Origin: Micromonospora sp. NBC_01796
Lineage (GTDB): Bacteria > Actinomycetota > Actinomycetes > Mycobacteriales > Micromonosporaceae
Direction: 5' to 3'
Assembly (NCBI RefSeq): GCF_035917455.1
Contig: NZ_CP109078.1
Location: forward strand, 4,340,001-4,404,000
Length of the DNA: 64,000 nucleotides
The notes under the pieces were generated by a model that saw nothing but the letters and a program-made list of their open reading frames with translations, was not told the origin of the DNA and searched no databases. The position numbers were made by a program, and so were the translations under genes. Of the stretch, positions 32,303 to 36,662 are shown one piece after another. The number at the start of each line of letters is the position of its first letter. Within the stretch, counting starts at the first letter, position 1.

Positions 32303-32682
32303 GCCCGAGATGCTCCGGCCGGCTGCCCCGAATGTCAACGGATCGTTGTCACTGGTGCCGGGGTTGACAGGCCGTCAGCCGGCTGCCTAGCCTTCGCCCA
32401 CCAGCCGTACCCATGGGTCCTGACCTGCGTCGCCGCCCGCCGGTGGCGAAACCGGTGGGTCCTGACCTGCGCCGACAGTCGGCGGGGTGAACCGGTGGCG
32501 GTGAAACCGTCTCGTCTCCGGTGAAACTGTGGAGGTTTCCGTAATCCGTCGGGCCCGCACCGGTCTCCTGACACGGAGAGGTCGGACGTAGTCCGGCCCG
32601 CCGCGCCCCGTGGCTCGGGCGCATCGCGACAATCGGGCGGGCAACCGCACGCGCGGTCACGATCGAAGGGGAGTGAGACACC
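32303..32682. promoter_or_regulatory. 380-bp regulatory region before the sigma-GH128 gene
   Basis: No gene is seen. It holds two 15-bp copies of GGGTCCTGACCTGCG (32415 and 32457, 42 bp apart) and GGTGAACCGG (32487), GGTGAAACCG (32501) and GGTGAAACTG (32521), the last two exactly 20 bp apart. GTGAAAC followed about 17 bp later by CCGT/CGTC resembles an ECF -35/-10 pair, so autoregulation by the downstream sigma factor is possible. GGGGAG gives the ribosome-binding site of ATG 32683. Confidence 0.45.
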
Positions 32683-34599
32683 ATGTCCGGAGTCGGTCGG
32701 GGCGTACCCGATACCGGAATGGTCATCGCGGCCCAGCGTGGCAACCCGCACGCCCTCGACGACCTGGTGGCGGACTCCCTGCCGCTGGTCTACAACATCG
32801 TCGGCCGCGCGCTGCGCGGTCACGTCGACGTCGACGACGTGGTCCAGGAGACCCTGGTACGGGTCGTGCGGCACCTGTCCGACCTGCGCGACCCGGAGGC
32901 GTTCCGGCCCTGGCTGGTGGCGATCACCATCCGGCAGATCCGCAACTGGGAACAGCACCGCCGGACCGCCCTGATCCGCGACGCCGGGGTCGAGGCGATC
33001 CACGAGGTGCCCGACCCGGCCGCCGACTTCGCCGAGGTGACCATCCTCCGGCTCGGCCTCACCGACCAGCGCCGCGAGGTGGCCGAGGCGACCCGCTGGC
33101 TCGACTCCGACGACCAGGAACTGCTCTCCCTGTGGTGGCTGGAGGAGACCGGCGAACTCGACCGGGCAGACCTCGCCGCCGCGCTCGGGTTGAGCGCCAG
33201 CCACGCCGCCGTACGGATCCACCGGATGAAGGAGCAGATCCAGACCGCCCGTACGGTCGTCCGGGCGCTGCGCGGTCGCCCCGGCTGCAACGACCTGCGC
33301 GTGATGACGGCGGGCTGGAACGGCACCCCCACCCCACTGTGGCGCAAGCGCCTGGCCCGGCACGTACGCGACTGCCCGGTCTGCGGCCGTTACCGCGAGG
33401 ACTTTCTCCCCATCGACCGGCTGCTCGCCGGGTTGCCGCTGCTCCCGCTGCCGGCCAGCTTCGGCGACCAGGCCGCCGCCGCTGCCGCCGCCCACGCGGG
33501 TGCGGCCACCCCGCACGTCGCCGCGACGACCCCCCAGGTCGACGCGGCGAGCGGCGGCACGTCGTGGACACCCGACCCGTCCGCCGTCGACCACTCCGGC
33601 TGGCTGGGCCACCTCTTCGCCGGCGGGGCCGGCAAGGTGATGGTCGCCGCCGCCACGGTGGCCACCCTCGTTGCCGGGGCGCTGGTGGTGACCAAGGTGA
33701 CCGGATCGCCGCCGTCGTCCGCGGCACCACCGGCGGCCGAGGCCAGCGTGGCACGGCCCAGTCCCACCCCGAGCGCGCTCACGCCGACACCGAGCGCGTC
33801 GCCGAAGGCGACTCCGACCGCCAGGCCGAGCAGCAAGGCGCCGGCCGCCGGCCCGGCGGTGTCGTCGGCGAAGAAGGGTGTCGCGGTCTGGGACTTCAAC
33901 GGGGCGAGTCAGGCCCTGGCCAACTCGAAGGCGAGTTGGTATTACACCTGGAACACCGGACATCCGGGAATCACCACCCCGAGCGGGGTGCAGTTCGTGC
34001 CGATGATCCGGGACTCGAAGAGTGTGACGGCTGCCGAGCTTGCCCGCGCGAAGGCCGCCGGCCCGTATCTGCTCGCTTTCAACGAGCCGGACCTGGCGGA
34101 GCAGGCGAACATGACCCCGGAGGCGGCGCTCGACCTGTGGCCGCAGTTGGTCGCGACCGGTGCCACGTTGGGTAGTCCGTCGGTCGCCTGGGGTGCTGCG
34201 GACGCGGGCGGTTGGCTCGACCGGTTCATGTCGGGGGCGAAGTCGCGGGGTCTGCGGGTCGATTTCATCGCCCTGCACTGGTACGGCGGTGACTTCAACA
34301 CCACCAATGCGGTGAACCAGCTCAAGCAGTATCTGACGGCGGTCTACAACCGGTACAAGGTGCCGATCTGGCTGACCGAGTTCGCGCTGATGAACTTCGT
34401 CAACGGTGGTCAGCGTTTTCCGACGCAGGAGCAGCAGGCGGCGTTTGTCACCGCCTCTGCGAAGATGCTCGCCGGGCTGTCGTTCGTGCACCGGTACGCC
34501 TGGTTCGGGCTGCCGGCGACGGACAAGGACCAGTCCGGACTGTTCCGTACGGGCACCGAGGCGACCGCCGTCGGCCGCGCCTTCCAAGCCGCCGGCTGA
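32683..34599 (+). CDS. Transmembrane ECF sigma factor fused to an extracytoplasmic GH128-like glycoside hydrolase
   Basis: A 638-residue protein of unusual make-up. Residues 10-95 are sigma region 2 (HVDVDDVVQETLVRVVRHL), 130-195 region 4 (LDSDDQELLSLWWLEE, SASHAAVRIHRMKEQ), and 227-234 an anti-sigma-like zinc motif His227-x3-Cys231-x2-Cys234 (HVRDCPVC). A single TM (about 318-337) leads to a Ser/Thr/Pro linker (340-395) and a GH128 (Asl1/glucan hydrolase-like) domain at 396-638 with putative acid/base Glu468 (FNEPD) and nucleophile Glu566 (WLTEFAL). The sigma part would be cytoplasmic and the glycosidase outside, so polysaccharide binding or cleavage could trigger sigma release. The GH128 domain is nearly identical to the next gene's. 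Confidence 0.88.
   Translation: MSGVGRGVPDTGMVIAAQRGNPHALDDLVADSLPLVYNIVGRALRGHVDVDDVVQETLVRVVRHLSDLRDPEAFRPWLVAITIRQIRNWEQHRRTALIRDAGVEAIHEVPDPAADFAEVTILRLGLTDQRREVAEATRWLDSDDQELLSLWWLEETGELDRADLAAALGLSASHAAVRIHRMKEQIQTARTVVRALRGRPGCNDLRVMTAGWNGTPTPLWRKRLARHVRDCPVCGRYREDFLPIDRLLAGLPLLPLPASFGDQAAAAAAAHAGAATPHVAATTPQVDAASGGTSWTPDPSAVDHSGWLGHLFAGGAGKVMVAAATVATLVAGALVVTKVTGSPPSSAAPPAAEASVARPSPTPSALTPTPSASPKATPTARPSSKAPAAGPAVSSAKKGVAVWDFNGASQALANSKASWYYTWNTGHPGITTPSGVQFVPMIRDSKSVTAAELARAKAAGPYLLAFNEPDLAEQANMTPEAALDLWPQLVATGATLGSPSVAWGAADAGGWLDRFMSGAKSRGLRVDFIALHWYGGDFNTTNAVNQLKQYLTAVYNRYKVPIWLTEFALMNFVNGGQRFPTQEQQAAFVTASAKMLAGLSFVHRYAWFGLPATDKDQSGLFRTGTEATAVGRAFQAAG
33860..34599 (+). repeat. Duplicated GH128-domain DNA, copy A (inside the sigma fusion gene)
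   Basis: About 740 bp from GTGTCGTCGGCGAAGAAGGG to the stop codon that recurs at 35223-35966 with only scattered, mostly third-position differences. The copy boundary lies in the low-complexity linker, which is also similar. This is a recent intragenic domain duplication or is kept alike by gene conversion. Confidence 0.9.
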
Positions 34600-34922
34600 A
34601 CCGACCCGGCGCAGCCCACAGGGGGCGGCGGTCGGCGTACCGCCGTTTCTTCCCGCGTACGCGCCACGACTCGGGGTGTGTGTCACGGGTGCACTCGTGG
34701 ATGATTGCCGGTGACAATTGTGTAAGCCGGTTATTCGTTGCCGTGTCCGCGCGCCGTCTGCTCGCGTGAGTCGGGCCGGAGCTTCGGATTACGGATTTAA
34801 GACGAAAATAAAAGACCCGGCCCGGGGCTCAGAGTTAAGTGAAAGATAAGGGATCCGAGTCGAGTTCGTCGAGGCTTTCCACGTACTGTTTCCGGCGGAC
34901 AGAGAAAGGTGTGTGCCCCCGT
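34600..34922. promoter_or_regulatory. 323-bp spacer with AT-rich promoter region before the GH128 lipoprotein
   Basis: No gene is seen. The part at 34700-34850 is much richer in A/T than its surroundings (TTGTGTAAGCCGGTTATTCG, ATTACGGATTTAAGACG, GAAAATAAAAGACC), which fits a promoter independent of the sigma fusion gene. GTGACAATTGTGTAAGCC at about 34710 and GTTAAGTGAAAGATAAGG at about 34833 could be sigma-dependent promoter elements. GAAAGG lies 13 bp before ATG 34923. Confidence 0.45.
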
Positions 34923-35966
34923 ATGACGTCACGACCCATCCTCGGAAAGCTCCGACCCGTCACCGCGGTTCTGCTGCTCAGTGCGGTGCTGTTCAGCGGT
35001 TGCAACAACGCGCCGGTCGTACCCGGAGCTTCGGGTCCGTCGGCCTCGACGTCCGCCTCGTCGTCGACCGGCTCGGGCCCCGCTGGCCCGGCGTCGCCGT
35101 CCGGCCTGCCGGGTTCGCCCTCCGCGACCGCGGGTACGTCACCCACCCCGTCGACCGGAAGTACGCCCCCGAAGGCGACCCCGACCGGCAAGCCGAGCAC
35201 CCAGGCGCCCCCGGCCGGACCGGGTGTCTCGTCGGCGAAGAAGGGTGTGGCGGTCTGGGACTTCAACGGTGCGAGTCAGGCCCTGGCCAATTCGAAGGCG
35301 AGTTGGTACTACACCTGGAACACCGGGCACTCGGGCATCACCACTCCGGGTGGGGTGCAGTTCGTGCCGATGCTCTGGGGTGCGAAGAGCGTCACCCCCG
35401 GCGAACTCGCCAAGGCTAAGGCCGCCGGCCCGTACCTGCTCGGGTTCAACGAGCCGGACCTGGCCGAGCAGTCGAACATGACCCCGGAGGCGGCGCTCGA
35501 CCTGTGGCCGCAGTTGGTCGCGACCGGCGCCACGCTGGGCAGCCCGGCCGTCGCCTGGGGCGGTGCGGACGCGGGCGGTTGGCTCGACCGGTTCATGTCG
35601 GGGGCCAAGGCGCGGGGTCTGCGGGTCGACTTCATCGCCCTGCACTGGTACGGCGGCGACTTCAACACCACCAACGCCGTCAACCAGCTCAAGCAGTACC
35701 TCACCGCGGTCTACAACCGGTACAAGGTGCCGATCTGGCTGACCGAGTTCGCGTTGATGAACTTCGTCAACGGTGGTCAGCGTTTCCCGACCCAGGAGCA
35801 GCAGGCCGCGTTTGTCACCGCTTCCACGAAGATGCTCGCCGGCCTGCCCTTCCTCCAGCGCTACGCCTGGTTCGGGCTGCCGGCCACGGACAAGGACCAG
35901 TCCGGACTGTTCCGTACCGGCACCGAGGCGACCGCCGTCGGCCGCGCCTTCCAGGCCGCCGGCTGA
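34923..35966 (+). CDS. GH128-like secreted lipoprotein (glucan hydrolase-like)
   Basis: A 347-residue lipoprotein. The signal LRPVTAVLLLSAVLFSGC ends in a lipobox (LFSG-C) at about residue 22, followed by a ~75-residue Ser/Thr/Gly/Pro linker and a GH128 (Asl1-like) domain at about 105-347 with putative catalytic Glu177 (GFNEPDL) and Glu275 (WLTEFAL). GH128 enzymes act on beta-1,3-glucans. It is almost identical to the C-terminal domain of the preceding sigma fusion, so both may see the same polysaccharide: this one as an enzyme or scavenger, the other as a sensor. GTG 34911 is an in-frame alternative start. Confidence 0.88.
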   Translation: MTSRPILGKLRPVTAVLLLSAVLFSGCNNAPVVPGASGPSASTSASSSTGSGPAGPASPSGLPGSPSATAGTSPTPSTGSTPPKATPTGKPSTQAPPAGPGVSSAKKGVAVWDFNGASQALANSKASWYYTWNTGHSGITTPGGVQFVPMLWGAKSVTPGELAKAKAAGPYLLGFNEPDLAEQSNMTPEAALDLWPQLVATGATLGSPAVAWGGADAGGWLDRFMSGAKARGLRVDFIALHWYGGDFNTTNAVNQLKQYLTAVYNRYKVPIWLTEFALMNFVNGGQRFPTQEQQAAFVTASTKMLAGLPFLQRYAWFGLPATDKDQSGLFRTGTEATAVGRAFQAAG

Positions 35967-36011
35967 GTCGAGTACAAGCGGGTCGAGTACAAGCGGGTCG
36001 AGTACAACGCG
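35967..36011 (+). repeat. 15-bp tandem repeat, three units
   Basis: GTCGAGTACAAGCGG occurs three times head to tail directly after the lipoprotein stop codon (the third unit is slightly changed). It fills the gap to the DUF305 gene. Its role is unknown; slippage would change only the intergenic spacing. Confidence 0.85.
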
Positions 36012-36029
36012 GAAGTGGGTACTGAGCTG

Positions 36030-36662
36030 ATGACCGGTGTGGGTGTCGCAACCGCCGCCCGAACCCGGAACTGGCGACTCGTCGGCGCCGTCGCGATCCT
36101 GGTCGCGACGGCGCTGGCCGTGGTGCTGGTGCAGGGCTGGGGGCGGGACGGGTCCCGGGCGAAGGCGAACGAACCGGCGGCGACAGCGGCGCCGATCGTC
36201 CTGAACGGAACCGATGTCGCGTACCTCCAACTGTTGATCCCGATGAACGACAGCGCGCTGGTGTTCTTCTCGTACCTCGGCACGAGCGAGGCGGCCACAC
36301 CGGCGCTGCGGGAGTTCGCCGGGCGCCTCGCCGCGACCCACCGGGCCGAGGTGGGCGAGATGCGGTCGCTGCTGGCCGCCGGGGGTGTGCCCGAGGAGAA
36401 CATCCACGAGGGCCACCAGATGCCCGGCATGGTCACCGAGCTGCGGCTCGCCGACCTCAAGCAGGCGCCGCCGGCCGAGTTCGGTGCCCGCGCGGTCACC
36501 CTGATCCGGGAGCACCTGGCCCAGAGCGCGGTGGTGTCCCGCTCGGAGCAGACGTCGGGCGGTGACGACCGGGTCAAGGCCGTCGCCGCCGGCCTGGAGA
36601 AGGCCAGGAACGCCGAGCTCGCCGAGCTGGAGGCGCTGCCGGGAACGTCGGGGGCGGGCTGA
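36030..36662 (+). CDS. DUF305 family membrane-anchored protein
   Basis: A 210-residue protein with one N-terminal TM (VGAVAILVATALAVVLVQGW, about 18-36) and an outside DUF305 (ferritin-like helical) domain. It shows DVAYLQLLIPMNDSALVFFSYL and the second repeat QAPPAEFGARAVTLIREHL typical of the family, but several of the usual His/Met metal ligands are changed (for example LIPMND where HHxxM-type motifs are common). It may therefore have lost metal binding. ATG 36030; GTG 36015 is possible. It follows the GH128 lipoprotein by 63 bp. Confidence 0.75.
   Translation: MTGVGVATAARTRNWRLVGAVAILVATALAVVLVQGWGRDGSRAKANEPAATAAPIVLNGTDVAYLQLLIPMNDSALVFFSYLGTSEAATPALREFAGRLAATHRAEVGEMRSLLAAGGVPEENIHEGHQMPGMVTELRLADLKQAPPAEFGARAVTLIREHLAQSAVVSRSEQTSGGDDRVKAVAAGLEKARNAELAELEALPGTSGAG

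Follow-up and report, generated by a model that had tools for sequence, protein, structure and literature searches.

The 64,000-nt stretch of Micromonospora sp. NBC_01796 analysed here (contig NZ_CP109078.1, positions 4,340,001 to 4,404,000; hereafter the window) encodes a real and conserved fusion protein that joins an extracytoplasmic function (ECF) sigma factor to a zinc anti-sigma (ZAS) segment, a transmembrane (TM) helix and a C-terminal GH128 domain. We interpret it as a one-component sigma receptor that spans the membrane and bears an enzyme-derived head, predicted to lie outside the cell and to recognise beta-1,3-glucan. To the overall reading, in which this sensor would be inhibited by its own ZAS segment, released on contact with glucan and directed to a conserved promoter-like element, we assign a probability of about 0.6.

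The first-pass annotation of this DNA had placed a sigma factor, a zinc motif, a TM helix and a GH128 domain in one 638-residue protein, and the gene is indeed a single uninterrupted frame with the following parts:

32683..34599, + strand: fusion gene for ECF sigma factor, ZAS segment, TM helix and GH128 domain (ATG start, 638 amino acids (aa), no internal stop)
32764..32949, + strand: sigma region 2 (aa 28-89; PF04542 Sigma70_r2, E 5.3e-12)
33100..33246, + strand: sigma region 4 helix-turn-helix (HTH; about aa 140-188; TIGR02937, weak HTH hits, alignment and fold matches)
33361..33384, + strand: ZAS zinc motif HVRDCPVC (aa 227-234; HxxxCxxC in 36/36 proteins)
33637..33693, + strand: predicted TM helix (aa 319-337; hydropathy peak, 36/36 proteins; model helix 325-337, low confidence)
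33709..33873, + strand: predicted outer linker, Pro/Ser/Thr/Ala-rich (about aa 343-397; sequence, low pLDDT)
33874..34596, + strand: GH128 subgroup I domain (aa 398-638; Foldseek 6UAT/6UAQ AmGH128_I; phmmer E 1.2e-82)

The sigma70-ECF profile TIGR02937 matches aa 23-188 (E 1.9e-17, 63.4 bits, cut-off 42.9), identifying the N-terminal part, with its regions 2 and 4, as an ECF sigma factor. The Pfam matches to the protein at E<=1 include no region-4 model and no family of the zinc-finger anti-sigma kind, and HTH_AsnC matches aa 140-183 weakly, under its cut-off; the ZAS assignment follows from the HxxxCxxC motif beside the sigma part. The only hydrophobic segment (aa 319-337) has a mean hydropathy of 2.26, and Pfam Glyco_hydro_cc covers aa 412-633 (E 2.8e-50). 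A structure of residues 200-340 had been proposed as a check; in the AlphaFold model, built from an alignment of 25 sequences, pLDDT is below 50 over aa 250-392. The head of the model matches AmGH128_I (6UAT/6UAQ) in Foldseek with 57% identity and a TM-score by target of 0.93-0.94, so that in both fold and sequence it is nearest to a solved GH128 structure, and the N-terminal part matches the sigma chains of the sigmaE-RseA, AlgU-MucA and CnrH-CnrY structures.

The GH128-sigma fusion is conserved and old. Scanning of the contigs of GTDB genomes yielded 38 loci, of which four sigma-less GH128 loci (L044-L047) were left out; the other 34, together with the window and loci L008 and L009, gave 37 fusion genes from three families, many of them from close Micromonospora relatives and thus not 37 independent cases. 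The fusion was found in all three sampled genomes of the window's genus (G000, its own genome, G001 and G002). Within the set, L040 runs off its contig, the start codons of L026 and L049 are ambiguous in the upstream comparison, and the frames of L031 and L034 are broken; the last two belong to Phytohabitans suffuscus and Micromonospora tarensis records, and the breaks may be natural or sequencing errors. Both the HxxxCxxC motif and the hydrophobic segment occur in every member of a 36-protein motif set (33 GH128 fusions and three paralogs with other heads), while NEPD and WLTE[FY] are kept in 32/33 GH128 fusions, the exception, L031, being cut by its frame break. Many residues of sigma regions 2 and 4 are invariant across 25 aligned sequences. 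An assembly error or chance fusion is rejected by the recurrence of the gene in 3/3 genus genomes and 37 loci, as is a degenerate sigma remnant by the invariant residues. The first-pass annotation had named an assembly error, lost sigma residues and an unreal TM helix as its own weak points, none of which is borne out, and its proposal of a one-component membrane-spanning sigma system with a GH128 head is supported.

Related proteins carry other heads. At E<=1e-40, 17/41 sampled Micromonosporaceae genomes encode relatives of the sigma-ZAS part, up to five per genome. Twenty stretches were fetched for a paralog survey, three of which lacked a readable gene of this kind; Pfam scanning of the other 17 recognised GH128 (n = 3), Pel9A-like beta-helix (n = 6) and AbfB (n = 2) heads and none in six, and the two AbfB-headed proteins (L172, L182) have no recognised enzyme domain. 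These varied heads point to the sigma-ZAS part as a modular receptor chassis. The window's own genome encodes a second sigma-ZAS-TM receptor of 726 aa at 7.456 Mb (L003, G000:C1:7456042-7457082, + strand), headed by a Pel9A-like right-handed beta-helix, and a further ECF sigma factor (L004, G000:C1:7493862-7494551, - strand) with HxxxCxxC, a late TM helix, no recognised head and a long low-complexity region containing a Glu-Val repeat run. By eye, the chassis proteins L176 (G076) and L181 (G054) have a lysozyme/transglycosylase-like head (ILRWAACKWGIDEDMVKAQAAIESWWHM) without a Pfam match.

Upstream of the fusion genes, the alignment reveals a short A/T-rich stretch followed by GTWATC, 16 nt and RTCTCC. 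In the window, this element starts 142 nt upstream of the fusion ATG:

32541..32568, + strand: promoter-like element GTAATC-N16-GTCTCC (putative -35 at 32541-32546, putative -10 at 32563-32568)

The exact form GTWATC-N16-RTCTCC precedes 29/37 fusion genes, compared with a mean of 0.002 in 500 mononucleotide shuffles of the same upstream regions, and a relaxed form (one mismatch or spacer 17) precedes 35/37 (shuffle mean 0.044). The 19 exact sites in 20 other genomes, assigned to genes from their position and from reading of the DNA that follows them, lie before fusions (n = 9), sigma-less GH128 genes (n = 5) and F5/8C-DUF1996 genes (n = 2), with three lacking a clear gene. Allowing one mismatch, the two A/T bases included, gave 7 sites in the three genus genomes vs none for a reversed-pattern control. 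Among the chassis paralogs, the three with GH128 heads, from other genera, carry GTTATC-N16/17-GTCTCC, compared with 1/14 of the genes with other or no heads. The element is probably a private, autoregulatory promoter of the fusion gene, with a predicted match between sigma factor and element. Two Pel9A-like-headed genes, L003 of the window's own genome and L011 of G002, have GTTATC-N17-GTCAAC upstream; as a general rule for such paralogs the element is rejected, six others being without it. In both Phytohabitans species, a stand-alone gene that looks sigma-factor-like by eye lies behind GTTATC-N16-ATCTCC (L092, L093), a possible link between sigma circuits, and one locus (L091, G007:C45:987-1188) carries two exact copies of the element 170 nt apart, within repeated DNA and not followed by a clear gene.

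In Micromonospora, the second gene with the element encodes a sigma-less, TM-anchored GH128 protein whose first residues resemble the N-terminus of the fusion (MHATGRGGPDTG vs MSGVGRGVPDTG), as if it had derived from a fusion by deletion of the sigma-ZAS part. Upstream DNA is readable for 12 genes of this kind, each of which has the element, in 10 cases exactly and in two (L090, L138) with GTTATT; contig ends truncate L145 and L149, which lie outside the 12. We searched fourteen two-copy Micromonospora genomes with an Arg-type fusion (see below; G003, G004, G006, G016 and ten more), in 12 of which the sole exact sites are those of the fusion and the TM-anchored GH128 gene. In the two exceptions, both sites have one mismatch (G004) or the contig of the second gene is truncated (G032), and several of the fourteen have additional one-mismatch sites; in G006, the sigma-less GH128 gene is split over two contigs. 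Elsewhere, the element also precedes F5/8C-GH128 genes (L071, and L075 of Streptosporangium, where GH128 starts 354 nt downstream of an exact element) and seven DUF1996 genes. Four of these have an exact element (Lentzea L084 and L085 with ATCTCC, Herbidospora L087, Streptosporangium L088) and three have one mismatch (Sphaerisporangium L074, Acrocarpospora L094 and L095); all seven match PF09362 and five also F5/8C. The first-pass idea that the sigma part switches on a GH128 enzyme gene has a counterpart in the element-bearing GH128 genes of Micromonospora, Herbidospora and Streptosporangium, and in its direct form it fails for the lipoprotein gene next to the fusion in the window.

Several observations weigh against the proposed glucan circuit. 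Two of the 37 fusion genes (L020, L025) have no element, exact or relaxed. In the window's own genome, the single exact GTWATC-N16-GTCTCC site is at the fusion gene, leaving a wider response there uncertain, and nothing above score 13 precedes the lipoprotein gene in the window (L002) or its sister genome (L010), on a matrix built from 29 fusion sites, which themselves score 23.4-36.9 (weaker fusion sites, 17.1-27.2). The five DUF1996 genes of the same genome (L100-L104) include at most one weak site (L101, score 14.2, spacer 17), and two of its one-mismatch sites (L055, L057) have no obviously related gene downstream. In the 20 other genomes, one-mismatch searching gave 52 sites vs 9 for the reversed pattern, and many such sites are probably background; the three exact sites without a clear gene and the sigma paralog L165, which has the element and no GH128 head, count in the same direction, as does the moderate quality of the AlphaFold model (mean pLDDT 67.7, pTM 0.43).

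Whether the fused head still acts as an enzyme bears directly on its proposed role as a sensor. The positions concerned in the fusion and in the downstream GH128 lipoprotein are as follows:

34009..34011, + strand: Arg443 of the fusion, codon CGG, at the GH128 substrate-platform Trp position (AmGH128_I W77 by count; alignment)
34084..34086, + strand: Glu468 of NEPD (= AmGH128_I E102; alignment, structure match)
34378..34380, + strand: Glu566 of WLTEF (= AmGH128_I E199; alignment, structure match)
35376..35378, + strand: Trp152 of the lipoprotein, codon TGG, platform Trp kept (alignment)

Both catalytic glutamates of AmGH128_I are thus present in the fusion, E468 presumably corresponding to the acid/base (E102) and E566 to the nucleophile (E199). 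The Trp platform of the negative subsites, which the family definition does not formally require, is replaced in the fusion (R443) and kept in the lipoprotein (W152). Alignment to PvGH128_II and an identical 27-residue spacing to the NEP glutamate equate the platform residue with W141 of CBM6E, described as spanning subsites -4 to -2 (PMC10956234). The first-pass annotation had suggested that the outer domain senses or cuts a glucan; the retained glutamates speak for cutting and Arg443 against it, so this half of the suggestion is weakened.

In a tree of 47 GH128 domains (36 fused, 11 sigma-less), 19/36 fused copies have Arg and 17/36 Trp at the platform position, while all 28 sigma-less copies (the 11 in the tree and 17 further frames, including L141) have Trp. 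Five further fused copies beyond the tree also have Trp (L135, L136, L163, L179, L180); in L163, the LTE[FY] motif was not matched by pattern. The distribution needs at least three changes on the tree, a single change sufficing in 0/200 bootstrap trees, and the direction is not forced; most simply, Trp would have been lost three times, once each in Micromonospora, Acrocarpospora and the window's genus, there not in G001. Of the genomes with an Arg-type fusion, 17/19 have another GH128 copy (E<=1e-40), vs 7/19 of those with a Trp-type fusion (no call for G036); this association is suggestive, but Arg arose independently only about three times. As TGG to CGG is one step, repeated Arg may also partly reflect mutation.

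These patterns also bear on an alternative in which the fused GH128 is a surface beta-1,3-glucanase, carried as autoregulated cargo by a sigma factor that answers redox, zinc or membrane stress through its ZAS segment. ZAS domains can respond to redox, the motifs with both catalytic glutamates are almost always retained (32/33), and in 12 genomes the fused copy, with its Trp, is the sole GH128 at E<=1e-40; moreover, with the sole exact element of the window's genome at the fusion itself, the main product of the circuit would be a membrane glucanase. However, related chassis bear other polysaccharide heads, including the AbfB heads without a recognised enzyme domain, and Arg replaces Trp in 19/36 fused vs 0/28 sigma-less copies. 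We therefore regard this alternative as unlikely.

For the glucan sensor that we favour, a mechanism can be outlined. The sequences themselves show the architecture, its conservation, the element, the gene sets, the Trp/Arg pattern and the mosaic of the two copies, and from them we infer the topology, ligand, ZAS inhibition, release step and reading of the element by sigma. The sigma part would be kept inactive in the cytoplasm by its own fused ZAS segment, and the head, descended from an endo-beta-1,3-glucanase, would sit outside the cell, joined through a single TM helix and flexible linker, where it would engage beta-1,3-glucan of fungal walls, callose or similar. Engagement would release sigma, most likely by stepwise proteolysis, and the freed sigma would transcribe from GTWATC-N16-RTCTCC, its own gene first, with more receptor as positive feedback. 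In relatives, it would also drive a dedicated Trp-intact GH128 enzyme and, in some genera, DUF1996 proteins. The GH128 lipoprotein would have arisen from a tandem copy in the window's genus. More tentatively, the data could reflect a repeated conversion of enzyme to receptor, which we hold possible though doubtful as a whole: a fused glucanase would lose its platform Trp once a second, Trp-bearing copy exists, leaving a closed two-gene circuit with a private promoter, gene conversion in one genus would spare the block that distinguishes sensor from enzyme, and the chassis would be reused with Pel9A-like and AbfB heads, making up a family of one-component receptors for polysaccharides.

The fusion gene is followed by two further genes on the same strand:

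34923..35966, + strand: gene for a GH128 lipoprotein of 347 aa that partly duplicates, in tandem, the linker and GH128 domain of the fusion (ATG start; lipobox-like LFSGC by eye)
36015..36662, + strand: DUF305 protein gene (GTG start, in-frame ATG at 36030; PF03713, E 8.7e-13)

As noted at first pass, the lipoprotein has nearly the same GH128 domain as the fusion (92.7% protein and 90.7% DNA identity over 246 codons). The check suggested at first pass, a search of other Micromonosporaceae for the fusion with an adjacent GH128 lipoprotein, finds the fusion widely and the lipoprotein in 2/3 genus genomes (G000 and G002, not G001); BLAST comparison with the remaining fusion loci showed no such tandem downstream. 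The proposal that the sigma domain switches on the lipoprotein gene is not supported: direct control by the conserved element is rejected, no element lying upstream in the window or the sister genome, where an isolated GTAATC has no GTCTCC at the right distance. In the gap between the two genes, a terminator search found one weak hairpin, compared with 1.5 in shuffles, so that transcriptional read-through from fusion to lipoprotein may occur. The lipoprotein probably works on the same polymer as the receptor while not being directly under the conserved element.

The two GH128 genes of G000 and G002 are mosaics. Of the 50 sites at which the four copies split two against two, 33 separate the genomes, 15 separate the genes and two are crosswise. 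The 15 gene-type sites are confined to nt 104-317 within the GH domain; beyond nt 317 (codons ~108-246), there are 23 sites of the genome type and one of the cross type, but none of the gene type. A run permutation over the 48 genome- and gene-type sites gave p 0.0001, on which we rely rather than on a Fisher test (p 3.4e-6) whose cut at nt 317 was picked post hoc. In the simplest account, the copies would predate the species split and have been homogenised separately in each genome, with differences kept in the block that contains the Trp/Arg position and the residues ahead of NEPD. This homogenisation and the adjacent tandem in G000 and G002 would also fit a lipoprotein that serves the circuit as an accessory, competing for, pre-digesting or presenting glucan and matched to the receptor by gene conversion. 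Gene conversion between tandem repeats requires no selection, however, and with the lipoprotein missing from G001 and from the other compared loci and lacking the shared element, such a role appears improbable.

A DUF305 gene occurs at 19/37 fusion loci, in 14 of them on the same strand and no more than 352 nt from where the fusion ends. Typical DUF305 members have a His-His motif; the window protein has IPMNDSAL at this position, yet also HEGHQMPGM, and its metal binding may differ. Copper binding is reported for the DUF305 protein CopM (PMC4335983). Between the lipoprotein and DUF305 genes lies a short tandem repeat of the GTCGAGTACAAGCGG type (35966-36010). That the receptor monitors the cell's own envelope or a developmental exopolysaccharide, as might SCO4117, whose knockout delays aerial growth and sporulation in Streptomyces coelicolor (PMC5826349), would suit the DUF305 neighbour and a narrow predicted regulon that is not obviously catabolic, but is quite unlikely given a head that closely matches a beta-1,3-glucanase and element-bearing secreted GH128 and F5/8C-DUF1996 proteins that resemble an attack on extracellular polymers.

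In the CC-licensed papers searched, we found none on GH128 together with such a sigma factor, and nothing on a GH128-sigma system in the DUF1996 literature. New here are the promoter-like element, the TM-anchored GH128 of Micromonospora that shares it, the Trp/Arg pattern and the gene-conversion mosaic. For the question of how a sigma factor with a built-in sensor is set free by an outside signal, the fusion is a compact and directly testable case with a predicted ligand and promoter, and in most Micromonospora genomes searched with just two exact predicted target genes. It may provide simple parts for glucan-responsive biosensors and help to explain how actinobacteria recognise fungi or the callose of plants.

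The ECF52 and ECF53 groups are reportedly treated in the surveys of Huang 2015, Pinto 2019 and Casas-Pastor 2021. The general architecture of the fusion is already predicted in print for these actinobacterial ECF groups: ECF48, ECF52 and ECF53 have C-terminal anti-sigma-like extensions with a zinc finger and TM helices, for which proteolytic activation is expected (PMC8999054), SCO4117 (ECF52) has a carbohydrate-binding domain (PMC5826349), and some ECF52/ECF53 members have predicted glycosyl hydrolase domains awaiting experimental validation (PMC10766802). The fusion shares the C-terminal zinc finger, the one or two TM helices and the outer carbohydrate or hydrolase module, a likeness by architecture alone, and goes beyond the consulted portions of these descriptions in its GH128 identity, promoter element, sensor-enzyme gene pair, Trp loss and, in the window, tandem twin. 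IutY of Pseudomonas putida (ECF243) likewise fuses sigma to a membrane anti-sigma factor and is released by regulated proteolysis, but it serves siderophore (aerobactin) signalling, and the text consulted mentions no enzyme head (PMC8999054). The head resembles the endo-beta-1,3-glucanase AmGH128_I of Amycolatopsis mediterranei (PDB 6UAQ; 57% identity) in fold and at both mutated catalytic Glu positions, and differs by Arg443 at W77. Precedent for GH128 folds as binders comes from the subgroup VII oligosaccharide-binding proteins (PDB 6UBC, 6UBD), although these, as described, are fungal and of another subgroup. The closest functional parallel may be sigmaI6/RsgI6 of Clostridium thermocellum, in which a GH10 sensor with very low activity still binds, and whose autoregulated regulon includes Xyn10D, 57% identical to the RsgI6 sensor (PMC4711584). 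Both systems would thus pair an outer, hydrolase-derived sensor with a similar enzyme of its own regulon under autoregulation. In contrast to the single ECF polypeptide described here, that Firmicute system, as reported, comprises separate sigma and anti-sigma proteins with a non-ECF sigmaI and responds to xylan/cellulose; the fusion is thus not a member of the sigmaI/RsgI family, but by analogy may work like its sensors.

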